This document shows positions 9,135 to 35,257 of a DNA stretch of 37,528 bases, in pieces. Position 1 is the first letter of the stretch, and every line of letters begins with the position of its first letter. The notes beneath the pieces were generated by a model. The model did no database searches and was not told the DNA's origin. It saw nothing but the letters and a program-made list of their open reading frames with translations. The position numbers and the translations under genes are program-made. This stretch comes from Bacteroidales bacterium. Lineage in GTDB: Bacteria; Bacteroidota; Bacteroidia; Bacteroidales; UBA932. The DNA is taken from NCBI GenBank assembly GCA_017619655.1, contig JAFZRV010000019.1:1-37528 (forward strand). Direction: 5' to 3'.

Positions 9135-9170
9135 AAGAAAGCCGCTGAATTTCAGCGGCTTTCTTGTTTT
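9135..9170. terminator. Bidirectional intrinsic terminator between clpX and the membrane-protein operon
   Basis: The near-perfect palindrome AAGAAAGCCGCTGAA (9135-9149) and TTCAGCGGCTTTCTT (9151-9165) is followed by GTTTT on the plus strand and has A/T flanks on the minus strand. It lies between the stop of clpX (9118) and the stop of the convergent minus-strand gene (9185), so it probably serves both. Confidence 0.88.
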
Positions 9171-9184
9171 ACAACGAAGCGGGG

Positions 9185-10288
9185 CTACGAAAGGTCGGCG
9201 CGGGCCATGGCGTCTTTGTAGTACTTCTGGTTGACGAAGACGTCCTGCTTGTACGGGTTGATGTGCCGCTTCTTCGACACGACGATGATATAGCCCAGGG
9301 CCACGATGTTGGTCACGAGCGCCAGGGCACTGATGAAGACCATCATCGAGGGATTGGCCGCCACGACGGACGGATCCACGGTCGTGCCCACGATACCGTC
9401 GACGGCAGCCTGGCCGCCGGCTTCGTACAGCTGCTGGATCGTGGCCGTTCCTTCCGGATAGAGGACGGGCAGCGTAGCCCAGGAGAACCACTGCTGGCCG
9501 TTCTTGAAGGTTTCCTGGAAGAGCGGGAACACCTGTGCGAACATGCACCAGATGGCCAGCGTGTTGGCGCGGTTCTGGATCCAGCCGCCACGGTTCCACA
9601 GGAGGGCGGCGATGGTCGGAGCGAGCAGCAGCGCGACACCGCAGTACCAGCTGTGCGTCGGCAGGCAGTTGTAGGTGTAGGCGAAGTTCCAGATGTCGTA
9701 GATCACGATATAGACCCAGGTCATGTCGGGCCAGAGCATATCCTGCTTGTTCTTGGAGGCGTAGACGCTCCACCAGGCCGTCATGCAGAAGATGTTGAAG
9801 AGACCGGCCACGCCGTTCATCACGTTGTGCCAGCCGCCGTACTGCCAGACACCTTCGGACGTGAGCCACCACTTGTTCCATCCCATCACGGCGCTCTCAA
9901 AATCGGAAACGCACGCAATCAGGATGTTGATGGCCACGATGATGAAGGGGAAGGGTTTGAACCAGTGCTTGGCGCCGATGCCCCATTTGTACTTGATCAT
10001 CATGAAACCGATGCAGCCCGCTGTGGCGGCGTATAGCTTGGCATAGTGGAACCAGCCCTGCATGTAGACATGGGTCTGGTTTTCCAGCGCCCAGCGTGCG
10101 CCGCTGCGGACACCGATCCAGATAGCCAGGAAATACACGGTCAGGATGACCGGAATGGCGAAAAACATGATGGCGCCGCCGGCCTTGGTCCTTCTCGCAA
10201 ACTCGTTGAGCAGGATCAGGCCCAGGAGGACCACCAGGAGCATTACCCACTGCGAGAGGGCATGCTCACCGTAAACTTGGAAAAACAT
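9185..10288 (-). CDS. Polytopic membrane protein of unknown function (DUF5692-like)
   Basis: A 367-aa integral membrane protein with about nine predicted hydrophobic helices, for example WVMLLVVLLGLILLNEF and ALALVTNIVALGYIIVVS. It is rich in Trp, His and Met, with conserved-looking segments such as WFHYAKLYAATAGCIGFM, NVMNGVAGLFNIFCMTAWW and DIWNFAYTYNCLPTHSWYCG. It resembles the family I know as DUF5692, found in gut anaerobes; no function is established. It is the last gene of a tight minus-strand operon behind hypB, a flavoprotein, hypA and a small membrane protein. This context suggests a role tied to hydrogen metabolism or metal supply, which is inference. It ends 20 bp before the shared terminator. 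Confidence 0.75.
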   Translation of the reverse strand: MFFQVYGEHALSQWVMLLVVLLGLILLNEFARRTKAGGAIMFFAIPVILTVYFLAIWIGVRSGARWALENQTHVYMQGWFHYAKLYAATAGCIGFMMIKYKWGIGAKHWFKPFPFIIVAINILIACVSDFESAVMGWNKWWLTSEGVWQYGGWHNVMNGVAGLFNIFCMTAWWSVYASKNKQDMLWPDMTWVYIVIYDIWNFAYTYNCLPTHSWYCGVALLLAPTIAALLWNRGGWIQNRANTLAIWCMFAQVFPLFQETFKNGQQWFSWATLPVLYPEGTATIQQLYEAGGQAAVDGIVGTTVDPSVVAANPSMMVFISALALVTNIVALGYIIVVSKKRHINPYKQDVFVNQKYYKDAMARADLS

Positions 10289-10312
10289 ACGATATGTGTT
10301 TTGGTAAAAAGA

Positions 10313-10621
10313 CTATTTCGTTGCCGGGGCCACTTTGCGGCGACGCTCCTTCACGAGGGCATAGACGGCCCATACGCCTGTCAGGACCACCGACATCGGC
10401 ACGCCGACCGTCAGCAGCTCGCGCAGGCTGAAGGTCAGGAGCTCGCCGTGGATGGCGTGGTCTACGAGCAGCACCACGGCACCGCCCCAGAGCATTTTTT
10501 CCAGCGCGGGAAGATGACGCATCAGTGCGCCTGCCTGGCCGGACTGGATCTTCTTTTCATGGTGACTGCGGACGATACTGGTTACGGCCGCTTGTGTCAA
10601 AGGAACTAAAAAACAAGACAT
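10313..10621 (-). CDS. Small two-helix membrane protein, unknown function
   Basis: A 102-aa protein beginning MSCFLVPLTQA. Two hydrophobic segments are visible, LWGGAVVLLVDHAIHGELL (about 44-62) and a second at about 69-90, with an Arg/Lys-rich tail. I believe I have seen proteins with this start next to DUF5692-type genes, but I cannot name a family. It lies 12 nt after hypA and 24 nt before the polytopic protein, so it is probably translated with them and may form a complex with the larger membrane protein. The His within helix 1 (DHAIHGE) could bind metal or haem; this is speculation. Confidence 0.7.
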   Translation of the reverse strand: MSCFLVPLTQAAVTSIVRSHHEKKIQSGQAGALMRHLPALEKMLWGGAVVLLVDHAIHGELLTFSLRELLTVGVPMSVVLTGVWAVYALVKERRRKVAPATK

Positions 10622-10633
10622 TGTAAAATTTAT

Positions 10634-10987
10634 CTAAATATTATCTTTAACTTCAATCTCCTTGATCTCCACCTCATTCCCATGCAGCAGCCAGGTGTTC
10701 GGACTGTTGCAGTAGGGGCAGATCTTGCCGTGGGGAACCGTCTCATAATCGCGGCCGCAGCCGTCGCAGCGGGTGACGGCGGGGATGGTGTTGATCTTCA
10801 GTTCGCAGCCCCGCAGCATGTCTTCCTTGTCCGCCGCCCAGCGCCAGCAGTCGAGGAGGTACTCCGGCACGATGGTGGACACCTCGCCGATGTTCATCAC
10901 CACGCCGGAGACGTGCTCCACGTGGTGCGCTTCGGCGGCTTCCTTGACGTCGCGGATGATGTAGAAGACGATGCCCAGCTCGTGCAT
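10634..10987 (-). CDS. hypA: HypA-type nickel metallochaperone
   Basis: A 117-aa protein. It starts MHEL, giving the conserved nickel-binding His2, and has the zinc-binding pair CDGC (74-77) and CPYC (90-93). HypA works with HypB to insert nickel into [NiFe] hydrogenases and sometimes urease. The longer frame opening at 11125 is rejected because its first 46 codons lie inside the upstream flavoprotein gene. ATG at 10987 shares one base with that gene's TAA (TAATG), a coupled start. A nickel chaperone is odd here, since the hydrogenase at 14663-18831 is an [FeFe] enzyme that uses no nickel. Confidence 0.9.
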   Translation of the reverse strand: MHELGIVFYIIRDVKEAAEAHHVEHVSGVVMNIGEVSTIVPEYLLDCWRWAADKEDMLRGCELKINTIPAVTRCDGCGRDYETVPHGKICPYCNSPNTWLLHGNEVEIKEIEVKDNI

Positions 10988-13818
10988 TATTTCTTCTTGT
11001 TGAAAATAATCTTTCCGGTACGCTTGATCATATAAGGCAGGATGCCGCTGAACTTGTCCTCGGAGGTGCGCATGACGCTGGCTTCCGGATGTTCGCGGTG
11101 CAGGTGGATGGCGTCGAAACCGCACTTGGTGGTGCAGACGCCGCAGCCGATGCAGCGGTTCTCGTCCACCACGGATGCGCCGCAGCTCAGGCAGCGGGCC
11201 GTTTCCCTGCGTACCTGCTCCTCCGTCAGGGTCATGTGGTATTCGCGGAACGGGTCCTTGGCTTCCGCCACGCCCTCGACCTGGCGGGAACCGCTGTCGT
11301 ACGATTCCACCCGGATATCGTTCTTGTCCAGCTCGATGAAGTCGCGGCGGTTGCGGCCGATGGTCATATGGCCGTGCTGCACGAAGCGGTGGAGCGATTC
11401 GGCGGCTTCCTTGCCGGCCGCGATGGCGTCGATGGCGAACTTCGGGCCTGTGAAGCAGTCGCCGCCCACGAAGATGTCGGGCTCGGCGGTCTGGTACGTC
11501 AGCTTGTCGGCCACGGGGTAGACACCGCGGAAGAACTCGACCTTCGTGTCCTTCAGCAGGTCCTTGAGGATCACCGTCTGGCCGATGGCGAAGACAACCA
11601 CGTCCGCATCCAGCGTAATCAAGTCATTTTCATCGTATTTCGGAGCAAATACACAATTTTCGTCAAAGACGGACGTGCATTTCTTGAAGACAATTCCGGA
11701 AACCTTGCCATCCTTGCCCAGCACTTCCTTCGGGCCCCAGCCCGGCTTGATCACCACGCCGTCCTCGCGGGCCTCGCGGCGTTCTTCCAGCGATGCGGGC
11801 ATGATGTCCTCGGTCTCGAGCGAGAGCATGGTGACGTCGGAGGCGCCGCTGCGCTTGGCCACGCGCGCCGCGTCGATGGCGACGTTGCCGCCGCCGACCA
11901 CCACCACCTTGCCGGAAACCTTCACCTGGCCGCAGTTCGCGTCGTGCAGGAAATCGATGGCCGTCGTCGTGCCGGCGAGCGTCTCGCCCGGAATGCCGGG
12001 CAGGCGGCCGCCCTGGCAGCCGATGGCTACGTAGAAGCCTTTGTAACCCTGTTCGCGCAGGCCGGCGATGGTGACGTCCTTGCCGACTTCCACGCCGGTG
12101 CGGATCTCCACGCCGATCTCGCGCATCACGTCGATTTCGGCGGCGATCACATTTTTCTCCAGTTTATAGGAAGGAATGCCGTAGCGGAGCATGCCGCCCG
12201 GCTCGGCGTTGCGCTCGAACACGGTGGGCTTGTAGCCCATCGTGGCCAGGTAGTAGGCGCAGCTCAGGCCGGCCGGGCCGCCGCCGATAATGGCGATCTT
12301 CTCGTCCCAGCGCTCCTGGACGTTCGAGCAGATGTTTACTTCCGGGATGAAGCGGGTCTCGGCGTTCAGGTCCTGCTCCGCGATGAATTTCTTCACCGCG
12401 TCGATGGCCACGGCCCGGTCGATGGTGCCGCGCGTGCAGGCGTCCTCGCAGCGGCGGTTGCAGATGCGCCCGCACACGGCCGGGAAGGGGTTCTCCCGCT
12501 TGATGAGCTCCAGCGCTTCGGTGTACTTGCCCTCCGCCGCCTTCTTCAGGTAGCCCTGGACCGCGATGTGCGCCGGGCAGGCCGTCTTGCAAGGCGAGGT
12601 GCCCGTGGGATAGCAGTTGATGCGGTTGCGGTCGCGGTAGTCCTCGTTCCATTTGTGCGGGCCCCACTTCGCCGCGTCGGGCAGCTCCTGCTTGGGATAG
12701 GTCTGCTCGCCGTGCTTCGTGCAGAGTTTCTGGCCGAGCTTCACCGCGCCGGCCGGGCAGTATTCCACGCAGCGGCCGCAGGCCACGCAGTTGGCCGGAT
12801 CGACCTTCGCGACATAGGCGCTGCGTGACATGTTGGGCGTATTGAAGAGCTGCGAGGTGCGCAGCGCGTTGCAAATCTTGACGTTGCAGTTGCAGATGGC
12901 GAAGATCTTGCCCTCGCCGTCGATGTTGGTGATCTGGTGGACGAAGCCGTGGTCCTCCGCCTTCTTCAGGATGGCCATCGCCTCGTCGTAGGTGATGTCG
13001 TGGCCGCGGCCGGTCTCCCGGCAATAGTCGGCCATGTCGCCCACGCCGATGCACCAGTCGCGGTAGTCGTCGGCGCAGCCCTCGTCCATTTTCTTGCGGC
13101 CGTAGCGGCAGGAGCAGATGCCCACGCCCAGATGGCCTTCATAGCGTTTGAGCCAGTAGGAGAGATGCTCGATGTCCACGGTCTGGTTCTCCATGCTGAT
13201 GGCCTTCTCCACGGGGATGACGTGCATGCCGATGCCGCTGCCGCCCATTGGAACCATGGGCGTGATCTTCTCCAGCGGGAGGAAGGTCATGCGCTCGAAG
13301 AACATCGCCAGCTCGGGATGGCGGTCCATCAGTTCCACGTTCATGTTCGTGTACTCGGCGCTGCCCGGCACGAACAACGGGACCCAATAGATGCGGTCTT
13401 CCCGGTTGTACGTCGTTCCGGGGACGGGGCCGTCCTTCGTGTATTTGTCACCGTAGTCGTATTCGATCAGGCCCAGGTAGGAAAGCTTGTCGATGAATGC
13501 GGCGAAGGCCTCGTCGCTCTCCACATAGTGCTTCTTCCGGTTCCATTCCAGCAGCTCGGGATACGGATGATGCTCGCGGACCTTGAAAGGTTTCTTGCAG
13601 ATGAGGTCCCAGAGGAAATCAAGCGCGGCCTCCCGGGTCTTTTCGTCCATTTCATCGTAGAAGAGGCAGGCGTAGCCCCAGTATTCCGGGGCTTCGGTGG
13701 TCATCTTGATCTTGCCGGGGACACGGTCCGTGATCTTGCGGACCAGGCGAATCAGCTTGGGATTGGGGTTCTTGTCACCATAATACTTGGGGACAAACTT
13801 CTTGGACATCTCAGGCAT
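10987..13818 (-). CDS. Large multi-FeS flavoprotein (GltD/NfnB-like NAD(P)H oxidoreductase fusion)
   Basis: A 943-aa fusion. Residues 1-330 form an Fe-S/redox domain with HPYPELL, GICSCRYGRKKMDEGC (234-248), DWC (254-256) and ICNCNVKIC (308-316). A ferredoxin motif CVACGRCVEYC follows (344-354). Residues 400-815 are a GltD-type flavoprotein: Cys clusters 402-414 and 449-461, the FAD site IAIIGGGPAGLSC (508-520), the NAD(P) site VVVVGGGNVAIDAA (638-651), and the second FAD segment VGGDC (784-788). The C terminus adds CLSCGA and CIGCGVCTTKC (876-899). It probably moves electrons between NAD(P)H and ferredoxin-type carriers. It lies 12 nt after hypB and overlaps hypA by 1 nt. The physiological partner is unknown; the neighbouring HydABC hydrogenase is the obvious candidate. 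ATG at 13818 or the Met4 codon at 13809 could be the start. Confidence 0.85.
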   Translation of the reverse strand: MPEMSKKFVPKYYGDKNPNPKLIRLVRKITDRVPGKIKMTTEAPEYWGYACLFYDEMDEKTREAALDFLWDLICKKPFKVREHHPYPELLEWNRKKHYVESDEAFAAFIDKLSYLGLIEYDYGDKYTKDGPVPGTTYNREDRIYWVPLFVPGSAEYTNMNVELMDRHPELAMFFERMTFLPLEKITPMVPMGGSGIGMHVIPVEKAISMENQTVDIEHLSYWLKRYEGHLGVGICSCRYGRKKMDEGCADDYRDWCIGVGDMADYCRETGRGHDITYDEAMAILKKAEDHGFVHQITNIDGEGKIFAICNCNVKICNALRTSQLFNTPNMSRSAYVAKVDPANCVACGRCVEYCPAGAVKLGQKLCTKHGEQTYPKQELPDAAKWGPHKWNEDYRDRNRINCYPTGTSPCKTACPAHIAVQGYLKKAAEGKYTEALELIKRENPFPAVCGRICNRRCEDACTRGTIDRAVAIDAVKKFIAEQDLNAETRFIPEVNICSNVQERWDEKIAIIGGGPAGLSCAYYLATMGYKPTVFERNAEPGGMLRYGIPSYKLEKNVIAAEIDVMREIGVEIRTGVEVGKDVTIAGLREQGYKGFYVAIGCQGGRLPGIPGETLAGTTTAIDFLHDANCGQVKVSGKVVVVGGGNVAIDAARVAKRSGASDVTMLSLETEDIMPASLEERREAREDGVVIKPGWGPKEVLGKDGKVSGIVFKKCTSVFDENCVFAPKYDENDLITLDADVVVFAIGQTVILKDLLKDTKVEFFRGVYPVADKLTYQTAEPDIFVGGDCFTGPKFAIDAIAAGKEAAESLHRFVQHGHMTIGRNRRDFIELDKNDIRVESYDSGSRQVEGVAEAKDPFREYHMTLTEEQVRRETARCLSCGASVVDENRCIGCGVCTTKCGFDAIHLHREHPEASVMRTSEDKFSGILPYMIKRTGKIIFNKKK

Positions 13819-13830
13819 ATAGACAGGTAT

Positions 13831-14505
13831 TTATGATTGTTTCCATTGTTTGACTTCCTGCAGCAGCCAGTCGGCGAAGACGTCCACGCCTTCGCCGGTT
13901 TTGGCGCAGATGGGGATGACCCGCGCCCTGGGGTTGCGCATATGCACGTAGGCTTTGCACTTCTCCAGGTCGAAGTCGAAGTAGGGCAGGACGTCGGTCT
14001 TGTTGACGATGACGGTGTCGCAGACGGAGAACATCAGGGGGTATTTCAGCGGTTTGTCGTCACCTTCCGGAACGGAGAGAATCATGGCGTTGCGCACGGC
14101 GCCGGTGTCGAATTCGGCCGGGCAGACCAGGTTGCCCACGTTTTCCAGGATGACCAGGTCGGCTTCGCCGAGGGCGATGTTGTCGAGCCCCTGGCGCGTC
14201 ATTTCCGCGTCGAGGTGGCACATGCCGCCCGTATGCAGCTGGATGGAAGGGATGCCGGTGGCTTCCTGGATCTTGACGGCGTCCACGTCGCTGTCGATGT
14301 CGGCTTCCATCACCGCGATGCGGATCTTGTCCTTGAGGCGATTGATGGTCTGAATAAGCGTGGTGGTCTTGCCGCTGCCGGGGGCGGACATCAGATTGAG
14401 GAGATAGACGCCTTTCTGTTTCAGCTCCTGCCGGAGCGCATCGGCATCCTTGTCGTTGTCGGCAAAAATGCTCTTTTTGATTTCGATGACCCTGATTTCG
14501 TCCAT
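13831..14505 (-). CDS. hypB: HypB, nickel-insertion GTPase
   Basis: A 224-aa SIMIBI GTPase. Motifs are clear: P-loop SAPGSGKTT, EADIDSDVDA, TGGMCHLDA, ENVGNLVCPAEFD (metal-binding Cys and switch region), and VNKTDV for guanine. No N-terminal His-rich nickel-storage stretch is present. The frame extends to a TTG at 14514, but the ATG at 14505 (MDEIRVIEI) is the likelier start. It heads the five-gene minus-strand operon and is divergent from hydB. Paired with HypA it normally supplies nickel to [NiFe] hydrogenase; hypC, D, E and F are not in the window. Confidence 0.93.
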   Translation of the reverse strand: MDEIRVIEIKKSIFADNDKDADALRQELKQKGVYLLNLMSAPGSGKTTTLIQTINRLKDKIRIAVMEADIDSDVDAVKIQEATGIPSIQLHTGGMCHLDAEMTRQGLDNIALGEADLVILENVGNLVCPAEFDTGAVRNAMILSVPEGDDKPLKYPLMFSVCDTVIVNKTDVLPYFDFDLEKCKAYVHMRNPRARVIPICAKTGEGVDVFADWLLQEVKQWKQS

Positions 14506-14662
14506 AATGAACAATTATAAGAAATATTTTTGAATTATTCAAATTTTTTCTCCGATTCAACATTCCGAACGATATTTTTGTTAGAAAATTGGCGTTAATT
14601 TAAAAAAGTGATTATATTTAAAGATTGAAATTTTCAATTTATAATTAGTCCTCAACCGTATA
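14506..14662. promoter_or_regulatory. Divergent hypB/hydB control region with paired palindromes
   Basis: 157 bp of AT-rich DNA between the hydrogenase operon and its divergent partner. It has two 13-bp palindromes of the same form, TTGAA-N3-TTCAA, at 14530-14542 and 14625-14637, 95 bp apart (about nine helical turns). Candidate promoters for hydB are TTG (14589-14591) with 21-bp spacing to TATATTTA (14613-14620, one mismatch to TAnnTTTG), and exact TATTTTTG boxes at 14573-14580 and 14525-14532. The second palindrome would sit near the start site of the first promoter, as a repressor site would. TATAATTG on the minus strand (14520-14513) is a near match for hypB. Confidence 0.55.
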
Positions 14663-16567
14663 ATGAAAATCAACTCAGCTGATGCCCTCGAAGGTATTCG
14701 ACGGAAAGCGGCCAAAGCGCTGTCCGTCAGGGAGACGAGCAAGCGTGTCGGCGCCATGAAGACCAGCGGTCTGGAGCAGGGGACCCCGCATATCCAGATT
14801 CTCTGCTGCGGCGGCACGGGATGCAAGGCCTCTGAAAGCGCCAAGATCGTGGAGAATTTCCACGCATCGATCGACGCCCACGGAATCGCCGACAAGGTGG
14901 ACGTGGTGGTGACCGGTTGCTTCGGTTTCTGCGAAAAGGGCCCGATCGTCAAGATTATGCCCGACAATACCTTCTACACCTCTGTCCGCCCCGCGGACGT
15001 GGAGGAGATCGTCACGTCGCACATCATCGGCGGCAACAAGGTCGAACGGCTCCTGTACCTCGACCCGGGCCTGGGCCGTCACGTGAGCGACGCCAAGCAC
15101 ATGAACTTCTACCGCAAGCAGATGCGCGTGGCGCTCCGCAACTGCGGTGTGATCGATCCTGAAAACATCGAAGAATACATCGGCCGTTACGGCTACCTGG
15201 CCCTGGCCGAAAGCCTCAAGCGGGACAGCCAGGAAGTCCTCGACGACATCAAGGCCTCCGGCCTGCGCGGCCGCGGCGGCGCGGGATTCCCGACCGGTAC
15301 CAAGTGGGAGATCGCCCGCAAGTTCAAGGCGGCCGACAAATATGTGGTGTGCAACGCCGACGAGGGCGACCCCGGTGCGTTCATGGACCGCTCCATCATG
15401 GAAGGCGACCCCAACTCGATCGTCGAGGCCATGACCATCTGCGGCTACTGCATCGAGGCGCACCACGGCCTCATCTACATCCGTGCGGAATATCCGCTGG
15501 CCGTCCATCGCCTGAAGATCGCCATCGAACAGGCCCGGGAATACGGCCTGCTCGGCAAGGACATCCTCGGCTCCGGCTTCGATTTCGACATCGAGATCCG
15601 GTATGGCGCCGGCGCCTTCGTCTGCGGCGAGGAAACGGCGCTCATCCACTCGATGGAAGGCAAGCGCGGCGAGCCGACGCTCAAGCCGCCGTTCCCCGCG
15701 GAGGCCGGTTACTTCGGCCATCCGACCAACGTCAACAACGTCGAAACCCTCGCCAACGTGCCCGTCATCCTGACGCGCGGACCCAAGTGGTTCTCGTCCA
15801 TCGGCACCGAGAAATCGAAGGGCACCAAGGTGTTCGCCCTGGCCGGCAAGATCAACAACGTGGGCCTGATCGAGGTTCCGATGGGCACGACGCTGCGCGA
15901 GATCATCTACGACATCGGCGGCGGCGTCAAGAACGGCAAGAAGTTCAAGGCGGTGCAGACCGGCGGTCCTTCCGGCGGCTGCCTCACCGAGAAGCATCTC
16001 GATATCCCCATCGACTATGAAAGCCTGACGGCCGCCGGCTCCATGATGGGCTCCGGCGGCATGATCGTGATGGACGAAGACGACTGCATGGTGTCGGTCG
16101 CCAAGTTCTATCTCGAGTTCACGGTGGGCGAGTCGTGCGGCAAGTGCACGCCCTGCCGCATCGGCAACAAGCGCATGCTCGAGATCCTGACCCGCATCAC
16201 CGAAGGAAAGGGCGAAATGGCCGACCTCGACAAGCTCCAGGAACTGGCCACGGTCATCAAGGACTCCGCGCTCTGCGGTCTCGGCCAGACCTCGCCGAAC
16301 CCGGTGCTTTCCACGCTGGCCAACTTCCGCGACGAGTACGTCGAGCACGTCCGCGCCCACAAGTGCCGCGCGAAGAAATGCAAGGCGCTGCTGACCTATA
16401 CCATCGACCCGCAGCGCTGCAAGGGCTGCTCGGCCTGCCTGAAATCCTGCCCCGCGCAGGCCATCATGGGCGAGAGCCGCAAACCCCACGTCATCAACCC
16501 GTATGTGTGCATCCGTTGCGGCATGTGCGTGTCGCGCTGCCATTTCGGTGCCATCTCCGTCATTTAG
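14663..16567 (+). CDS. hydB: [FeFe] hydrogenase beta subunit, NuoF-like (NAD/FMN)
   Basis: A 634-aa subunit of a HydABC-type electron-bifurcating hydrogenase. The N terminus is a thioredoxin-like [2Fe-2S] domain (ILCCGGTGC...GCFGFC). The NuoF core follows, with the FMN/NADH loops GRGGAGFPTGTKW and GAGAFVCGEETALIHS, then the [4Fe-4S] ligand motif ESCGKCTPCR. The C terminus has a 2[4Fe-4S] ferredoxin domain (CKGCSACLKSCP and CIRCGMCVSRC). This subunit exchanges electrons with NAD(H) and is the bifurcation centre in characterised homologues. It is first in the operon, 12 nt before hydA, and full length. Confidence 0.94.
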   Translation: MKINSADALEGIRRKAAKALSVRETSKRVGAMKTSGLEQGTPHIQILCCGGTGCKASESAKIVENFHASIDAHGIADKVDVVVTGCFGFCEKGPIVKIMPDNTFYTSVRPADVEEIVTSHIIGGNKVERLLYLDPGLGRHVSDAKHMNFYRKQMRVALRNCGVIDPENIEEYIGRYGYLALAESLKRDSQEVLDDIKASGLRGRGGAGFPTGTKWEIARKFKAADKYVVCNADEGDPGAFMDRSIMEGDPNSIVEAMTICGYCIEAHHGLIYIRAEYPLAVHRLKIAIEQAREYGLLGKDILGSGFDFDIEIRYGAGAFVCGEETALIHSMEGKRGEPTLKPPFPAEAGYFGHPTNVNNVETLANVPVILTRGPKWFSSIGTEKSKGTKVFALAGKINNVGLIEVPMGTTLREIIYDIGGGVKNGKKFKAVQTGGPSGGCLTEKHLDIPIDYESLTAAGSMMGSGGMIVMDEDDCMVSVAKFYLEFTVGESCGKCTPCRIGNKRMLEILTRITEGKGEMADLDKLQELATVIKDSALCGLGQTSPNPVLSTLANFRDEYVEHVRAHKCRAKKCKALLTYTIDPQRCKGCSACLKSCPAQAIMGESRKPHVINPYVCIRCGMCVSRCHFGAISVI

Positions 16568-16579
16568 AAGCCTCAGGAA

Positions 16580-18343
16580 ATGCAAAAGAAGATCAAGCTT
16601 ACCATCGATAAAATTCCGGTGTCCGTAGCGCCCGGAACGACGATCCTCGATGCTGCTAAATCGGTCGGCATCGTCATCCCTACACTCTGCCACATGGACC
16701 TCAAGGGCACCTGCGTGCAGAACAAGCCGGCCTCCTGCCGCATCTGCGTCGTGGAAGTGGAAGGCCGCCGCAACCTGGCTCCCTCCTGTGCCACGGCCTG
16801 TGCCGAAGGCATGGTTGTCTGGACCAACTCCGCCCGCGTGGTGCGCGCCCGCAAAACCATCGCCGAGCTCATGCTCTCCGACCATCCCAACGACTGCCTG
16901 ACCTGCCCGAAGTGCAGCGACTGCGAGCTGCAGCGCCTCGTCATGCGCTTCAACATCCGCGAAATGCCCTTCCAGGGCGGCGAGCAGTCCACCCGCAAGA
17001 AAGAAGTGACGGCCGCCATCTCCCGCAGCATGGACAAGTGCATCCTGTGCCGCCGCTGCGAAAGCGTGTGCAACAACGTGCAGTCCGTCGGTGTGCTGGG
17101 TGCGATCCGCCGCGGTTTCGACACCACCATCGCGCCGACGTTCGACCGGATGTTCAAGGATACCGACTGTACCTACTGCGGCCAGTGCGTGGCGGTGTGT
17201 CCGACCGGCGCGCTGACCGAGCGCGACAATACCGACCGCCTGCTGGAAGATCTCAACGACCCGAACAAGATCGTCATCGCGCAGCCGGCCCCGGCCGTGC
17301 GCGTGGCGCTGGGCGAAGAGTTCGGCATGGCGCCCGGTACCATCGTGACCGGCAAGCTCGCCACCGCCCTGCGGCATCTGGGCTTCACGAAAGTGTTCGA
17401 CACGGACTTCGCCGCCGACCTGACCATCATGGAGGAAGGGACGGAGATCCTGCATCGCCTCAAGGCCTTCCTGGCCGGCGACAAGAGCGTCAAGCTGCCG
17501 ATCATGACTTCCTGCTGCCCGGCGTGGGTCAATTTCTACGAGCACAACTATCCCGACCTCCTGGATTATCCGTCCACAGCCAAGTCGCCCGGCCAGATGT
17601 TCGGCGCCATCGCCAAGACCTGGTGGTGTGAGAAGCGCGGCATCGACCGCAAGAAGGTGGTCGTCGTCTCGATCATGCCCTGCCTGGCCAAGAAGTATGA
17701 ATGCGAGCGTCCTGAATTCTCGGTGGACGGCAGCCCCGACGTGGACTATTCGATTTCCACCCGCGAACTGGCCCGCCTGATCAAGCGCGCCAATATCGAT
17801 TTCGCCCAGCTGCCCGACAGCGATTTCGACACCCCGATGGGCGAGTCGTCCGGCGCGGGCGCCATCTTCGGCGCGACGGGCGGCGTGATGGAGGCGGCCC
17901 TCCGCACGGTGTACGAGGTGTATACCGGCAAGGAGCTTCCCAAGCTGGAATTCACCCAGGTGCGCGGTTTCGACGGCATCAAGGAGGCGGTCATCGACCT
18001 GGACGGTTTCCCGCTCAAGGTCTGTGTGGCGCACACGCTCGGCAACGCCCGGATCCTGATGGACAAGCTCCGCAAGGGCAAGCTCGATTACCATGTGGTG
18101 GAAGTGATGGCCTGCCCCGGCGGCTGCATCGGCGGCGCCGGCCAGCCGTACCACCACGGCCATATCGAGGTGCTCGACGCGCGCCGCGAGGCCATCTACC
18201 GGGAAGACGAGGGCAAGGCCATCCGCATGAGCCACAAGAATCCCGACATCGTCAAACTGTATGAAGAGTTCCTGGGCGAGCCGCTGGGCGAACGCTCCGA
18301 GGAGTTGCTCCACACACATTACTTCAACAAACAGATCCAGTAG
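16580..18343 (+). CDS. hydA: [FeFe] hydrogenase catalytic subunit HydA
   Basis: A 587-aa catalytic subunit. The N terminus has a [2Fe-2S] ferredoxin domain, then the His-Cys3 cluster in DHPNDCLTCPKC (101-112), then two [4Fe-4S] clusters (CILCRRCESVC and CTYCGQCVAVC). All three H-cluster signatures are intact: TSCCPAW (310-316, with the proton-relay Cys313), MPCLAKKYECERPE (366-379) and MACPGGCIGGAGQP (510-523). It therefore looks like an active, prototypical group A enzyme that makes or uses H2, not a sensory one. It lacks the additional C-terminal [2Fe-2S] domain of some HydABC enzymes. HydG and HydF in the window would build its H-cluster. Confidence 0.96.
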   Translation: MQKKIKLTIDKIPVSVAPGTTILDAAKSVGIVIPTLCHMDLKGTCVQNKPASCRICVVEVEGRRNLAPSCATACAEGMVVWTNSARVVRARKTIAELMLSDHPNDCLTCPKCSDCELQRLVMRFNIREMPFQGGEQSTRKKEVTAAISRSMDKCILCRRCESVCNNVQSVGVLGAIRRGFDTTIAPTFDRMFKDTDCTYCGQCVAVCPTGALTERDNTDRLLEDLNDPNKIVIAQPAPAVRVALGEEFGMAPGTIVTGKLATALRHLGFTKVFDTDFAADLTIMEEGTEILHRLKAFLAGDKSVKLPIMTSCCPAWVNFYEHNYPDLLDYPSTAKSPGQMFGAIAKTWWCEKRGIDRKKVVVVSIMPCLAKKYECERPEFSVDGSPDVDYSISTRELARLIKRANIDFAQLPDSDFDTPMGESSGAGAIFGATGGVMEAALRTVYEVYTGKELPKLEFTQVRGFDGIKEAVIDLDGFPLKVCVAHTLGNARILMDKLRKGKLDYHVVEVMACPGGCIGGAGQPYHHGHIEVLDARREAIYREDEGKAIRMSHKNPDIVKLYEEFLGEPLGERSEELLHTHYFNKQIQ

Positions 18344-18345
18344 TC

Positions 18346-18831
18346 ATGAGTGAGATGAAATTATCCTGCGAGGCCGTCCGCCAGGTGGAGGAGGTCTGCG
18401 AAAAATTCCATAACGATCCGGGTGAACTCATCGCCATCCTGCACGAATGCCAGGACCGGCTGGGCTATCTGCCCGAGCCGGTGCAGCGCATTATTGCAGG
18501 CAAGCTCTGCATTCCGGCTTCGAAGGTCTATGGCGTGGTGACGTTCTATTCGTTCTTCACGATGTCGCCGAAGGGCAAGCATCCCGTCTCGGTCTGTCTG
18601 GGCACGGCTTGTTATGTGCGCGGGGCGGACAAGTTGCTGGAGGAATTCAAGCGTGTGCTGGGCATCGACGTGGGGCAGACGACGCCCGACGGCAAGTTTT
18701 CGCTCGACTGTCTGCGCTGTGTGGGTGCCTGCGGTCTGGCGCCGGTGGCGACCATCGGCGACAAGGTCTATGGGCGTCTGAATCCGGCCGACATCAAGCG
18801 GATCATTTCCGAGTTCGAGGCCGAGGAATGA
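18346..18831 (+). CDS. hydC: [FeFe] hydrogenase gamma subunit, NuoE-like
   Basis: A 161-aa thioredoxin-fold [2Fe-2S] protein of the NuoE/HydC family. The four Cys ligands are in CLGTAC (about 85-90) and CLRCVGAC (about 125-132), with the LGYLPE segment earlier. It transfers electrons inside the HydABC complex. It starts 2 nt after hydA. Its last 29 nt (18803-18831) are antisense to the end of hydF, so the two operons converge and overlap. An intrinsic terminator for this transcript lies 57 nt further on, inside hydF. Confidence 0.93.
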   Translation: MSEMKLSCEAVRQVEEVCEKFHNDPGELIAILHECQDRLGYLPEPVQRIIAGKLCIPASKVYGVVTFYSFFTMSPKGKHPVSVCLGTACYVRGADKLLEEFKRVLGIDVGQTTPDGKFSLDCLRCVGACGLAPVATIGDKVYGRLNPADIKRIISEFEAEE

Positions 18832-20065
18832 CGACGCGGTCGAGGATGCCCTGCAGTTTGGCGAGGGCGATCCCGTAGTTTGTAAGGGGCACTCCGGCGA
18901 GGAGTGCCTTTTTTATGCGGCTGCGGACCAGCTGCCGGGAGGCGACGCAGGCGCCGCAATGGATGATGAGGTCGTATTGGGACAGGTCGTCGGGGAAGTC
19001 ATTCCCTGCTGCGATGTCGATCTGCAGACCGTCATGCCGGGCTTGACCATTGTCGTCATGCCCGGCTTGACCGGGCATCTCGCTTGCTTTGCTGCTCTGG
19101 TTTTTCGGACTGCGAGCAGAAAAATGCTCGCAGTCCGAAAAACCACCCGCAGCGTCGCTCGCTTTCATATTAATATGTTTGCGCAGCAGCGCGGGAATCT
19201 TGACGCGGCCGATGTCTTCGGTGTCGGGGACGTGGGTGCAGGCTTCGGCGATCAGGACGCGGTCGCCGGGTTTGAGGCGGTCGATGGCGCGGGCGCCTTC
19301 GACGAAGACGTCGATATCGCCTTTGGCGGCGGCCAGCAGGATGGAGAAGGAGGTGAGGGGACAGTTGGCCGGAAGATGGTCGTTGACGGAACCGAACACT
19401 TGTGAGTCGGTGATCGTCAGGGCGGGGAGTTCCTTGAGGGAGGCGAGGGCCCGGGACAGGGAGTCGGGCGTGCAGCACAGCGGGTTGCAGCCGCGGTCAA
19501 GCAGTTCCCGGAGGACCTGAACCTGCGGCAGGATCAGGCGTCCTTTGGGCGCTTCGCTGTCCTGCGGCATGACCAGCAGCACGGTGTCGCCGGCTTTCAC
19601 CAGATCGCCGGTCAGGTAGCGTTCTTCTTCCGCCGGCCGGGCTTCCCGGATGCGCCGGATCAGGGATTCGACCGACTCGCCGCGGGTGTATTCGATGACG
19701 GGAATGCCGGCCTGTGCCGCCAATGTCCCGATTTCGGGGACGTCAGGCGCAATAGCGCCCGTATTTTGGCGCTGATGTCCAACATTTTGGGACGGCAGAA
19801 GCACGACGGCTATGTCGGCCTCGTCGAGGACGGCCCGCGTGAGCCGCTGGCGCTCCGGACCCAGCACGCCCGCATCGTCGAGCCCCGCCGTGTCGATGAG
19901 CACGCAGGGGCCCAGGCCCGGCACTTCGATCGGTTTCCGCACCGGATCGGTCGTCGTCCCGGGAATCTCGCTGACAAGCGAGACTTCCTGTCCCGCGATG
20001 GCGTTGACCAGGGTCGACTTGCCGCTGTTGGTCGGGCCGAAGAAGGCGATGTGCAGCCGTTCCAT
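18803..20065 (-). CDS. hydF: [FeFe] hydrogenase maturation GTPase/scaffold HydF, with insertions
   Basis: A 420-aa scaffold that carries the H-cluster precursor to HydA. The GTPase domain has P-loop GPTNSGKS (10-17), GTTTD (36-40) and DTAG (58-61), but no NKxD motif follows: the expected place reads IPVIEYTRGES. Residues 92-109 near it look inserted. The C-terminal cluster motif is C276-T-H278 ... H369-C370-G-A-C373. The spacer between the two His is 90 residues, whereas I recall about 45-53 in the family. The surplus is about 45 residues (302-346) encoded by palindromic repeat DNA. The gene starts 2 nt after hydG. It may still be functional, as all cluster ligands remain. Confidence 0.88.
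   Translation of the reverse strand: MERLHIAFFGPTNSGKSTLVNAIAGQEVSLVSEIPGTTTDPVRKPIEVPGLGPCVLIDTAGLDDAGVLGPERQRLTRAVLDEADIAVVLLPSQNVGHQRQNTGAIAPDVPEIGTLAAQAGIPVIEYTRGESVESLIRRIREARPAEEERYLTGDLVKAGDTVLLVMPQDSEAPKGRLILPQVQVLRELLDRGCNPLCCTPDSLSRALASLKELPALTITDSQVFGSVNDHLPANCPLTSFSILLAAAKGDIDVFVEGARAIDRLKPGDRVLIAEACTHVPDTEDIGRVKIPALLRKHINMKASDAAGGFSDCEHFSARSPKNQSSKASEMPGQAGHDDNGQARHDGLQIDIAAGNDFPDDLSQYDLIIHCGACVASRQLVRSRIKKALLAGVPLTNYGIALAKLQGILDRVVIPRPRTRK
18888..18914 (+). terminator. Intrinsic terminator for hydBAC embedded in hydF coding sequence
   Basis: GGCACTCC (18888-18895), loop GGCGA, GGAGTGCC (18901-18908), then TTTTTT (18909-18914). This is a canonical terminator on the plus strand, 57 nt after the hydC stop. 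On the minus strand the same bases encode the KKALLAGVPL segment of HydF. There is no U-tract on the minus strand, so it should act only on the hydBAC transcript. Confidence 0.85.
19031..19165. repeat. Palindromic repeat insertion inside hydF
   Basis: About 135 bp, a multiple of three. It comprises the ATGCCGGGCTTGAC / ATGCCCGGCTTGACCGGGCAT unit (19034-19077, same family as 4329-4385), then a long hairpin: a perfect 20-bp inverted repeat with arms 19099-19118 and 19125-19144 and loop GAAAAA, extended by GCTGC/GCAGC outside. It is translated as an extra low-similarity segment, including MPGQAGHDD, between two conserved HydF blocks. Exact borders are estimated from protein alignment by eye. Confidence 0.8.
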
Positions 20066-20067
20066 GA

Positions 20068-21483
20068 TTAAAAACGGAAATCCCGTTCGCCGGCCTCGAT
20101 GCGGGCGAGGCGCTCGACGGTCTTTTCGCGCACCCGGCCTTCGGGAATGTCGCCCAGCGAAGCGGCGATGAGCCGTTCACCGGCCGCCCGCGTGGCGGGA
20201 GAAGCGTAGTCCATGAGGTATTCCTTCAGGGTCATCAGCGCGTTGGGCGTGCAGCAGAGGCTGATCTTGCCGCTCTTGCAGAGCGACATGAAGCGGTCGC
20301 CCGTGCGCCCTTCGCGGTAGCAGGCCGTGCAGAAGCTCGGGATGTGGTCCTGCTCCAGCAGCCAGCGCACCACGTCGTCGAGCGGGCGGGTGTCCGACAC
20401 GTCGAACTGCGCCGTCTCGTCGTGGCGCTCTTCGGTGGTATAGCCGCCCACGCTGGTGCGCGAGCCGCCGCTGATCTGCGACACGCCGCAGTGCAGGAGC
20501 TGCTCCCGCATGCGGGCCGATTCGCGCGTGGAGATGATCATGCCGGTGTAGGGCACGGCCACGCGGAGCACCGCCACGATCTTGCGGAAGATGCTGTCGG
20601 GCAGGGCGTCGGGGAAACTGTCGAGCGACACGTCGTCGGCGGGGCAGATGCGGGGCATGCTGATGGTGTGCGGGCCGACCCCGAAACGGGCCTCCAGGTG
20701 TTCGGCGTGCATCAGCAGGGCGGTGAGCTCGTAGCGGTAGCCGCCCAGGCCGAAAAGGACGCCGACGCCCACGTCGTCGCAGCCGCCTTCCTGCGCGCGG
20801 TCCATGGCCTCGGTGTGCCAGGCGTAGTTGCTCTTGGGACCGGTTGGGTGCAGGCTTTCGTACTGCTGCTTGTTGTAGGTTTCCTGAAAGAGGATATAGG
20901 TGCCGATGCCGGCGGCCTTGAGCTTGCGGTAGGATTCCACGTCCGTGGCGGCGATGTTGACATTGACCCGGCGGATGCTGTTGCCGCCTTCCCGGACCGA
21001 ATAAATGGTCTTGATCGAATCGAGGATGTATTCCAGCGGATTGTGCACGGGATCTTCGCCGGCTTCCACGGCGAGGCGCTTGTGGCCGGTGCGGATGAGG
21101 GCGCGCACTTCCGCGGCGATCTCTTCCTGCGAGAGTTTCTTGCGCGGGATGCTGCGGTTCTTGGCGTGGTAGGGGCAGTAGACGCAGCCGTTGATACAGT
21201 AGTTCGACAGGTAGAGCGGCGCGAAGAGCACGATGCGGTTGCCGTAGAAGCGCTGCTTGATCTCGCCGGCCAGCGCGTAGAGCCGCGCTTCGAGCGCCGG
21301 GTCGTCACAGTCGAGCAGGACGGCCGCTTCCCGGTGGCTCAGGCCCTTGCACAGGGCGGCCTTCTCCAGGATCTCGCTGACGCGCTGCGGGTTGCGGCTT
21401 TCGCGTTCGGCGGCGGCCAGGGTCTCGAGGACTTCGGCGTGGTCGATGAATTCTTCTGCGTGGGTGGATGAAGGATTGTACAT
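20068..21483 (-). CDS. hydG: [FeFe] hydrogenase maturase HydG (radical SAM)
   Basis: A 471-aa radical-SAM tyrosine lyase that makes the CO and CN ligands of the H-cluster. The SAM cluster motif is CINGCVYC (Cys96, 100, 103) in the CxxxCxxC form of the family. The C-terminal second cluster site fits CX2CX22C (Cys385, 388, 411) in FCTACYREG...LCC. The length is normal. ATG at 21483 lies only 15 nt beyond the tRNA-Lys terminator hairpin on the minus strand, so hydG-hydF either has a compact promoter there or depends on read-through. HydE, the third maturase, is not in the window. Confidence 0.95.
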   Translation of the reverse strand: MYNPSSTHAEEFIDHAEVLETLAAAERESRNPQRVSEILEKAALCKGLSHREAAVLLDCDDPALEARLYALAGEIKQRFYGNRIVLFAPLYLSNYCINGCVYCPYHAKNRSIPRKKLSQEEIAAEVRALIRTGHKRLAVEAGEDPVHNPLEYILDSIKTIYSVREGGNSIRRVNVNIAATDVESYRKLKAAGIGTYILFQETYNKQQYESLHPTGPKSNYAWHTEAMDRAQEGGCDDVGVGVLFGLGGYRYELTALLMHAEHLEARFGVGPHTISMPRICPADDVSLDSFPDALPDSIFRKIVAVLRVAVPYTGMIISTRESARMREQLLHCGVSQISGGSRTSVGGYTTEERHDETAQFDVSDTRPLDDVVRWLLEQDHIPSFCTACYREGRTGDRFMSLCKSGKISLCCTPNALMTLKEYLMDYASPATRAAGERLIAASLGDIPEGRVREKTVERLARIEAGERDFRF

Positions 21484-34024: not shown

Positions 34025-35257
34025 ATGAAACACATCGCATTATTGATTTCCGCGGCCATCCTGCTGATGGTTGGCGTTTCCTGTGAGAAACTCGAAAACG
34101 AAGAGACGGGGGATAATTCGCCCAAGCGTCTCGAACTGTCGACCAAATCGACCGAACTCGTCCGGCAGGGCCAGGATTTCGCGTTCGAATTCATCGACCG
34201 TGTGAACCAGTCGGAAAAGGACGATTTCATCATTTCTCCGCTCAGCATGCAGTTCCTGCTGGGTATGCTGCTGGACGGCGCCCAGGGTAAGACGTCGGAT
34301 GAAATCTGCCAGGTGCTGGGCTACGGCGCGGGAGAAGTCGAGGCCGTGAACGAGTATTGCCAGTCGATGATGACGCAGCTGCCCAAGCTGGACAAGAAGA
34401 CCAAGCTCAGCCTGGCCAACGCCATTTTCGTCAACAAACCGTATACGCTGCTGGACACGTACAAGTCTACGGTCGGCAAGTATTATCAGGCGGAAGTCTC
34501 CAACCTGGATTTCACGAAAAACGCCAGTTCCCTGAAGACTATCAACGGCTGGTGCTCCAAGAATACGAACGGGCTGATTCCGAAGGTTTTGGACAATGTG
34601 GATCCTTCCGCACTGGCCTATCTGCTCAACGCGCTCTATTTCAAGAGCGAATGGCAGAAACCATTCCCGAAGGCCAACACCGCCAAAGAGCCCTTCACGA
34701 TGGAAGACGGCAAGGTCAAGAAAGTTCCGATGATGAAAAACAACATCAAGGCGGCCGCGCAGGAAAACGATGACTGCTCGATTGTCCGGCTCACCTACGG
34801 AAATGGCGTCTACGCCATGCTGGTCATCCTCCCGGCGCAGGGCAAGAAACTCACCGACTTGACTGCCGCCATCCAAAAGCAGGGCTGGAGCAATTACTTT
34901 CCGCCGATGGTTTCCTGCGACGTGGATCTGTGGCTGCCGAAATTCGAGACGAAATACGAGATAAACCTCAATACCATCCTGTCCGACATGGGAATGCCCA
35001 GCGCCTTCACTCCCGCGGCCGACTTCAAGGCCATGTCGAACAGTGCGTTGTGCCTGAGCTTCGTGAAGCAGGATGCGATCATCAAGGTGGATGAAGAAGG
35101 GACGGAAGCCGCAGCGGTTTCCACGGCCGCCATGTATGCGACGGCATTGCTGCCCAACCAGAAAATCGTCTTCCACGCCGACCGCCCGTTCCTCTACCTG
35201 ATCACCGAAAGCAGCACCGGCGCCATCCTCTTCGCCGGCAAGTACAGCGGTAAATAA
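34025..35257 (+). CDS. Serpin-family protease inhibitor, lipoprotein
   Basis: A 410-aa secreted serpin anchored as a lipoprotein (lipobox Cys20, LLMVGVSC). Serpin landmarks are FIISPLSMQFLLGMLLDGA (helix B region), NALYFKSEWQKPF (strand s3A), KVDEEGTEAAAVS (hinge, Glu357-Gly359-Thr360) and FHADRPFLYLI with FAGKY at the C terminus. The hinge has small residues, as an inhibitory serpin should. Counting from the hinge places P1 near Thr373 and P1' at Ala374 (YATALLP), which would favour an elastase-like target; this is an estimate. It lies 11 nt after the beta-barrel gene, apparently in the same operon. Confidence 0.9.
   Translation: MKHIALLISAAILLMVGVSCEKLENEETGDNSPKRLELSTKSTELVRQGQDFAFEFIDRVNQSEKDDFIISPLSMQFLLGMLLDGAQGKTSDEICQVLGYGAGEVEAVNEYCQSMMTQLPKLDKKTKLSLANAIFVNKPYTLLDTYKSTVGKYYQAEVSNLDFTKNASSLKTINGWCSKNTNGLIPKVLDNVDPSALAYLLNALYFKSEWQKPFPKANTAKEPFTMEDGKVKKVPMMKNNIKAAAQENDDCSIVRLTYGNGVYAMLVILPAQGKKLTDLTAAIQKQGWSNYFPPMVSCDVDLWLPKFETKYEINLNTILSDMGMPSAFTPAADFKAMSNSALCLSFVKQDAIIKVDEEGTEAAAVSTAAMYATALLPNQKIVFHADRPFLYLITESSTGAILFAGKYSGK

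Follow-up and report, generated by a model that had tools for sequence, protein, structure and literature searches.

The closest described counterpart of the locus considered here, a five-gene operon on the minus strand (positions 9185-14505) of a Bacteroidales contig of 37,528 nucleotides (nt), this whole stretch of analysed DNA being called the window, is the isr operon of Acetobacterium wieringae strains ISORED-2 and Y, whose product IsrA is regarded as a putative isoprene reductase (Kronen et al., 2023; PMC10134865). In the passages of that paper on which the present account draws, IsrA is described as a protein of 901 amino acids (aa) with a flavin adenine dinucleotide (FAD) domain and ferredoxin motifs towards both ends, its Cys6 site comprising CxC pairs at 180/182 and 254/256, with a ferredoxin motif from 289. 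HypA and HypB, which are typically hydrogenase maturation factors, were there proposed to insert nickel into IsrA because the organism possesses neither a NiFe hydrogenase nor hypCDEF, and IsrA, HypB and one of the HypA proteins become more abundant in Acetobacterium with isoprene. The isr operon ferredoxin, which adjoins the second HypA, aligns by its N-terminal part to residues 1-270 of IsrA. For the 988 IsrA homologues of clade 9, the named hosts of which include Bacteroidetes, co-occurrence was given as 0.73 for HypA, 0.56 for HypB and 0.4 for DUF5692. Respective to substrates, hydrogenation of isoprene was shown for the two A. wieringae strains and not for the tested relatives, 1,3-butadiene is a second substrate of strain Y, and terpenes and other unsaturated hydrocarbons were proposed; in A. 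woodii and A. fimetarium, an oleate hydratase gene lies near the clade-9 gene (PMC10134865).

The explanation favoured here for the Bacteroidales operon, with moderate confidence, is a reductase of the IsrA kind with an N-terminal site loaded by HypA and HypB (HypAB), a hydrogenation of C=C bonds serving as sink, and a membrane unit. Electrons from reduced nicotinamide adenine dinucleotide (phosphate), i.e., NAD(P)H, would enter the 943-aa protein at a GltD/NfnB-like FAD domain and travel through its 4Fe-4S clusters as far as the Cys-rich site in the N-terminal part. The hydrogenation of a C=C bond that is unactivated, and probably conjugated, would take place there and act as an electron sink. 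HypB and HypA would constitute the dedicated nickel-delivery pair of this site, and the DUF5692 protein together with a small protein is proposed to make up a unit in the membrane at which the reductase docks or which deals with the hydrophobic substrate of the reductase. The genes and domains concerned are as follows.

13831-14505, minus strand: hypB, first gene of the operon, with its ATG at 14505 (TIGR00073)
10987-13818, minus strand: isrA-like flavoprotein gene, 943 aa (PF07992, PF14691 and Fer4, over cut-off)
12871-13116, minus strand: codons of the N-terminal site C235, C237, C248, C256, C309, C311 and C316, the apparent counterpart of IsrA 'cluster V'
11374-12615, minus strand: GltD/NfnB-like domain, residues 402-815, with solved relatives; FAD, NAD(P) and two Fe-S clusters expected from the family
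10634-10987, minus strand: hypA, 117 aa (PF01155), overlapping the flavoprotein gene by 1 nt
10313-10621, minus strand: small membrane protein gene, 102 aa, recognised by conservation and hydropathy
9185-10288, minus strand: gene of a DUF5692 polytopic membrane protein, 367 aa (PF18948)

From hypB onwards, the intergenic gaps are 12 nt, -1 (a 1-nt overlap in TAATG), 12 nt and 24 nt, and the coordinates agree with an earlier account drawn from the DNA letters and translations only (the sequence-only reading), which had described five minus-strand genes with gaps of at most 24 nt and one overlap, diverging from hydBAC. The conservation of this layout was followed by a pattern scan of genome contigs, which gave at least 591 pattern-matching stretches, among them at least 552 relatives, the best 80 of which were analysed; chosen by their likeness to the window (82-98% identical across the N-terminal 400 residues), these 80 loci describe the kin of the window and not all of clade 9. 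In this set, hypB lies directly upstream of the isrA-like gene in 75/78 loci that extend far enough to show it, the exceptions being L147 (203 nt away), L184 (a split copy) and L150 (none), and hypA directly follows the isrA-like gene in 70/70. Where at least 1.7 kb are available past hypA, DUF5692 is present in 53/59 loci and the small gene in 50/59; DUF5692 is lacking in L123, in L146 and in L109 to L112, which rank first in likeness to the window, and the small gene is missing from the other 9/59 as well as from a Clostridia plasmid. Since the gene order is shared with four other Bacteroidales genomes and recurs in most of the 80 loci, the five-gene grouping is more than chance. At the level of sampled genomes, the N-terminal 400 residues are matched in full in 5/79 genomes of the family and in 1/395 of the phylum (at most four candidates scored per genome), and with the whole flavoprotein as query a full-length match was obtained only in the own genome among 149 of the order (at most five candidates scored per genome).

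The 943-aa flavoprotein exhibits, in residue order, (i) a Cys-rich N-terminal domain, (ii) a 4Fe-4S ferredoxin motif from C344 to C354, (iii) a GltD/NfnB-like FAD-NAD(P) domain, and (iv) a C-terminal ferredoxin-type Fe-S motif from C876 to C899. Over residues 391-925, a PRK12771-type match reaches 433.5 bits, under its cut-off of 516, and the 12 solved relatives of the FAD domain (E up to 1e-20), all inside positions 389-880, include NfnA (9n5u), an Nfn subunit (5jca), GltD (6s6s) and dihydropyrimidine dehydrogenase (1gt8). Residues 402-815 belong to the family of NfnB, GltD and the FAD domain of dihydropyrimidine dehydrogenase, the profile and chain matches of which stop short of the N-terminal Cys-rich domain. 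In the protein of the window, the first ~330 residues match no Pfam family at E up to 1, and the alignments listed to solved structures reach only the ferredoxin motif of this domain, with stretches at 309-387. A HypAB pair is not known to be part of NfnB, GltD or dihydropyrimidine dehydrogenase. In an alignment of 79 rows, to which the 80 loci contributed the 73 whose frame spans 850 aa or more, the other rows being the window and five additional sequences, C235, C237, C248, C256, C309, C311 and C316 are Cys in 79/79, and H199, H218 and H294 are likewise constant. The CxC pairs at 235/237 and 309/311 and the ferredoxin motif from 344 are spaced by 74 and 35 residues, i.e., the very spacings of IsrA, the site of which is counted as six cysteines where the kin of the window are constant at seven.

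As such, the operon shares with the isr operon a reductase of about 900 aa with an FAD/NAD(P) domain, 4Fe-4S sites and a CxC...CxC site, the presence of HypA and HypB, and a host in which no NiFe hydrogenase or HypD was found. It differs in having one hypA only, no separate ferredoxin gene within 9185-14505 and another gene order, in adding the small membrane protein and DUF5692, and in its Bacteroidales host; a strict isr operon, defined by two hypA and a separate 4Fe-4S ferredoxin gene, is therefore not what the window contains. Because length (943 aa with PF14691 and PF07992 over cut-off, near the IsrA-type length of about 900 aa), domains, CxC spacings and HypA/HypB neighbours agree with the description of IsrA, the window appears, by these features, to hold a member of the clade-9 kind. 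Put forward in the sequence-only reading as the best candidate for an undescribed system, the association of HypA, HypB and DUF5692 with IsrA-type oxidoreductases turns out to have been published in 2023, around the IsrA homologues of Kronen et al. (PMC10134865), and the claim of novelty falls; the passages of that paper considered here do not mention the small membrane gene or the Bacteroidales gene order. No later study of an IsrA-type system was found in the literature within reach, most subscription journals lying outside it.

Both Hyp proteins keep the metal ligands of their families. HypB scores 239.1 bits against a TIGR00073 cut-off of 121.2 and is a GTPase with a P-loop and a G-domain metal site C96-H97...C128, the residues of which are invariant in 9/9 aligned rows, and without a Cys-rich N-terminal metal motif; its solved relatives, namely 4lps, 2hf8 and 2wsm, are every one HypB. 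HypA reaches 104.2 bits for PF01155 (cut-off 28.9) and stays under the stricter NCBIfam equivalog TIGR00100 (71.9 bits against 88.1), with an MHE nickel motif and a CxxC...CxxC zinc site whose H2, E3, C74, C77, C90 and C93 are invariant in 11/11 rows. Family membership and metal ligands liken the pair to the HypA and HypB of [NiFe] hydrogenase and urease, from which it is set apart by the score of HypA under TIGR00100, by the lack of a client hydrogenase or HypD in the genomes searched, and by a separate HypB clade. In a tree of 34 rows, the 14 operon copies, including that of the Clostridia plasmid, form one clade separate from 20 other HypBs of the order at 100/100, the program warning of a long branch for L029, among the 20. 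Except for G011, these 20 come from genomes with PF00374, the NiFe hydrogenase large subunit, over cut-off. More broadly, HypB is over cut-off in 52 of the 149 genomes sampled in the order, 48 of which also have PF00374 over cut-off, with the proviso that many of these PF00374 matches are partial and may include complex-I relatives; the four without are G000, G011, G035 and G142.

Another nickel client was sought in six genomes, i.e., that of the window (contig C7 of a 1.40-Mb assembly estimated to be 60.65% complete), four congeneric genomes and one from elsewhere in its family, five of the six being 95-98% complete. PF00374 was found in 0/6, HypD (PF01924) in 0/6 (HypC, HypE and HypF lay outside this search), carbon monoxide dehydrogenase (CODH)/prismane proteins in 0/6 and urease over cut-off in 0/6. 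HypB is over cut-off in five of them, exactly the operon-bearing ones, and is encoded beside the flavoprotein every time. These results bear on the view that HypAB mature another nickel enzyme, such as NiFe hydrogenase, urease, CODH or lactate racemase, and merely adjoin the flavoprotein, and they lend little support to the option of the sequence-only reading that a nickel enzyme elsewhere is under shared control. The typical role of HypA and HypB in hydrogenase maturation, the incompleteness of the window's own genome, a LarA-type match over cut-off in G179, with sub-threshold ones in G000, G198 and G213, and sub-threshold urease-type matches in G000, G180 and G198 speak for it; set against them, besides the searches above, are G162, of the same genus, with neither flavoprotein nor HypB over cut-off, G180, which carries the operon and has no LarA match, and the fact that HypAB stay with the flavoprotein in two phyla. 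Maturation of another nickel enzyme is regarded as quite improbable. Considering that the operon linkage is conserved, that NiFe hydrogenase and HypD are found in 0/6 genomes and that an [FeFe] hydrogenase (hydABC) lies inside the fetched DNA in only four of the 80 loci, HypAB most likely serve the IsrA-type flavoprotein and not a hydrogenase. The puzzle of a HypA/HypB pair beside an iron-only hydrogenase, as put forward in the sequence-only reading, was nonetheless real.

Further indications on the destination of nickel come from stand-alone homologues of the N-terminal domain, about 280-440 aa long, which occur in Bacteroidota. Eight such loci were examined (L072, L087 to L093) and seven frames were readable, that of L091 not being recovered; by eye, all seven cysteines are kept in six of the seven, L092 having no counterpart of C256. 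In G190, a genome of the window's family (76% complete), hypA and hypB stand directly before a lone N-domain protein (L072; L189:2443-4555, contig C128), a 360-aa Fe-S protein with no FAD domain gene on its 5-kb contig, and this arrangement is possibly a minimal HypAB-client pair. The HypB of G190 groups with the operon copies at 99/99, a weak placement given its long branch and unsettled bootstrap. This pairing, together with the isr operon ferredoxin that aligns to the first residues of IsrA beside the second HypA, suggests that HypAB follow the N-domain, and points to the N-terminal Cys domain as their nickel client; the lone protein of ~360 residues beside hypAB narrows down the question of where the nickel goes, and it is open to expression on its own.

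Alternatively, HypAB could handle another metal or Fe-S assembly, the N-terminal site being a nickel-free Fe-S cluster and the enzyme an Fe-S/flavin ene-reductase or an electron bifurcator. Cluster V has indeed been likened to the Ni-containing A cluster and also to the nickel-free P-type and double-cubane clusters, with bifurcation raised (PMC10134865), and the same cysteines recur in stand-alone Fe-S proteins, most of which have no hypAB in their fetched flanks. On the other hand, HypA keeps His2/Glu3 and HypB keeps CH...C, i.e., the nickel ligands, and, by eye, extra Cys around the CNC motif set all readable lone relatives except L092, i.e., six of seven, apart from the IsrA-type site. This alternative is judged unlikely. 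Lone N-domain homologues are also borne by two plasmids, one of Acetoanaerobium, in a record that bears no annotation, and one of Cetobacterium, with no hyp gene annotated within 4 kb; in L190 (G452), by eye, another lies ~4 kb from a seeming NiFe hydrogenase large subunit.

Regarding the membrane proteins, the DUF5692-like gene of the sequence-only reading is a full-length member of PF18948 (model positions 2-304 of 304; 431.6 bits, cut-off 27), with seven hydrophobic stretches in its hydropathy profile, the last two overlapping. Among solved structures, no relative of it was found at E up to 5. Across eight members, some distant, many polar residues are invariant, as is one His, and no Cys is. 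The small protein has Cys3, Arg18, Glu41, Trp45, Asp54, His55 and Glu60 constant in 57/57 aligned rows and a hydrophobic C-terminal half compatible with two helices; a scan of five members gave no Pfam family over cut-off, and MamI (18.1 bits, cut-off 80) and DUF5656 (15 bits, cut-off 23.3) were both rejected. The pair could alternatively be a metal or ion transporter supplying nickel to HypAB, as the invariant polar residues of DUF5692 would allow. With no invariant Cys and a single invariant His, a DUF5692 gene missing from 6/59 operon loci and others present in G001 and G120, genomes without HypB over cut-off, this is judged very improbable, and the docking or substrate-handling unit remains the proposed role. 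An obligate tie of DUF5692 to IsrA was ruled out, the family occurring elsewhere in G001, G120, G080, G051 and a Latilactobacillus plasmid. Lone DUF5692 genes of 75-80% identity were seen at L012:8796-9887 and L011:3080-4156, in genomes where neither HypB over cut-off nor a full-length IsrA-like gene was found. Distant DUF5692 genes at L010 and L013 adjoin, by eye, a seeming Crp/Fnr-like regulator gene, the DUF5692 frames of L143 and L187 are broken, possibly through assembly errors, and at L170:9857-10531 one frame fuses hypA with the small membrane gene.

Several points weigh against an IsrA-like reductase fed with nickel by HypAB. IsrA itself is called putative, with biochemical tests requested (PMC10134865), and the window operon is placed as IsrA-type (clade 9) by features taken from the published description of IsrA. 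Acetobacterium species with homologues 47-49% identical to IsrA do not reduce isoprene (PMC10134865), so that the substrate need not be isoprene. No hypAB was found in the fetched flanks (up to 1.5 kb) of seven of the eight lone N-domain loci, and the Cys site alone thus need not mean nickel. Finally, the DUF5692 copies of G001 and G120, 75-80% identical, sit in unrelated surroundings, from which it follows that DUF5692 has a use outside IsrA. The sequence-only reading had regarded a complete [NiFe] hydrogenase with hypCDEF elsewhere in the genome, together with random neighbourhoods of the DUF5692-like gene, as telling against it. Half of this was observed: no NiFe hydrogenase or HypD was found in the six genomes, but other genomes of the order do contain DUF5692 by itself.

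The surroundings of the operon comprise the following features.

9135-9165, minus strand: terminator-like hairpin, 14-pair stem and T-rich tail, by consensus match, downstream of the last stop
14506-14662, no strand: AT-rich divergent region of 157 bp between hypB and hydB
14663-18831, plus strand: hydB, hydA and hydC, NADH-dependent A6 [FeFe] hydrogenase (NF040763, 875 bits against a cut-off of 765)
18803-21483, minus strand: hydF and hydG, H-cluster maturases (TIGR03918 at 438 bits, TIGR03955 at 824 bits, each over its cut-off)

The operon diverges from hydB (start 14663), the window HydA is of group A6 [FeFe], and the region in between shows promoter-like consensus matches only. The operon might alternatively belong to hydrogen metabolism, the flavoprotein and membrane pair coupling HydABC to NADPH, to ferredoxin or to a carrier in the membrane. 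Besides the window, hydABC adjoins the operon in L110, L112, L117 and L137, in three different arrangements: in L110 and L112, hydBAC follows hypB-isrA-hypA on the same strand, at the place of DUF5692 in most other loci; in L117, it diverges from the operon as in the window; in L137, it precedes the operon in the same orientation, hydF and hydG lying in between. In G198, hydF and hydG are near the operon. Against this stand the rarity of the association, i.e., the four loci already counted and 2/38 of those with long flanks on both sides, the lack of hydABC near the operon in G180, and the fact that HypAB would be left unexplained; the contigs of G213 and G179 stop just past hypB and so do not cover the side in question. 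A link with hydrogen metabolism is thus improbable, and a fixed tie to [FeFe] hydrogenase was set aside as a side observation. What stands of the new role in hydrogen or metal handling once suggested for HypAB and the membrane proteins is that they belong with the flavoprotein, the hydrogen part having weakened.

Returning to the IsrA-kind reductase, the record titles of the 80 loci name a ruminant or a rumen compartment in 29 cases, 31 more being labelled RUG, for rumen uncultured genomes, and 20 having no readable source. With so many kin from ruminant guts, rumen biohydrogenation of fatty acids or terpenes is worth testing, and these Bacteroidales offer a concrete candidate for it. Rumen biohydrogenation is a sink for hydrogen that can otherwise become methane; at the level of literature listings, no enzyme assigned to such a sink in rumen Bacteroidales was found. 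Speaking against fatty acids or terpenes, the neighbour families shared by 4/80 loci or more, three in number, do not by eye resemble lipid metabolism. The list of nickel enzymes is short, and, were nickel loaded into this flavo-FeS reductase, it would gain a member acting on plain C=C bonds. The far-reaching version of this, a new class of nickel enzyme consisting of a membrane-docked, NAD(P)H-driven reductase with a seven-Cys site loaded by its own HypAB and hydrogenating dietary unsaturated lipids or terpenes in rumen Bacteroidales, is considered unlikely.

As for mobility and expression, the Clostridia plasmid OY725877.1 (L107, Subdoligranulum variabile), typed mobilizable, carries hypB-isrA-hypA-DUF5692 without the small gene and is a possible route of transfer between phyla. 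Carriage by viruses was not supported: in a pattern-limited search of viral contigs, the two sets of matching stretches (50 and 49) contained no relative of IsrA or DUF5692. Recurrent extra neighbours were likewise discarded, the largest family (among those in at least four loci) being present in only 5/80, as was a shared regulatory site upstream of hypB, no dyad of the tested kind appearing in more than 4/77 upstream regions; the words enriched in these 77 regions, ATCTTTG and AAAGATA, presumably reflect the ordinary Bacteroidetes promoter. The hairpin at 9135-9165, of a class with 7 sites versus 6.1 in shuffles, may end the operon, and one tRNA is the sole RNA element of the window at gathering scores. 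In G213, as in the window, clpX adjoins DUF5692. Farther away, a serpin is encoded at 34025-35257 of the window (PF00079, 347 bits), serpins being a family of protease inhibitors uncommon in bacteria.

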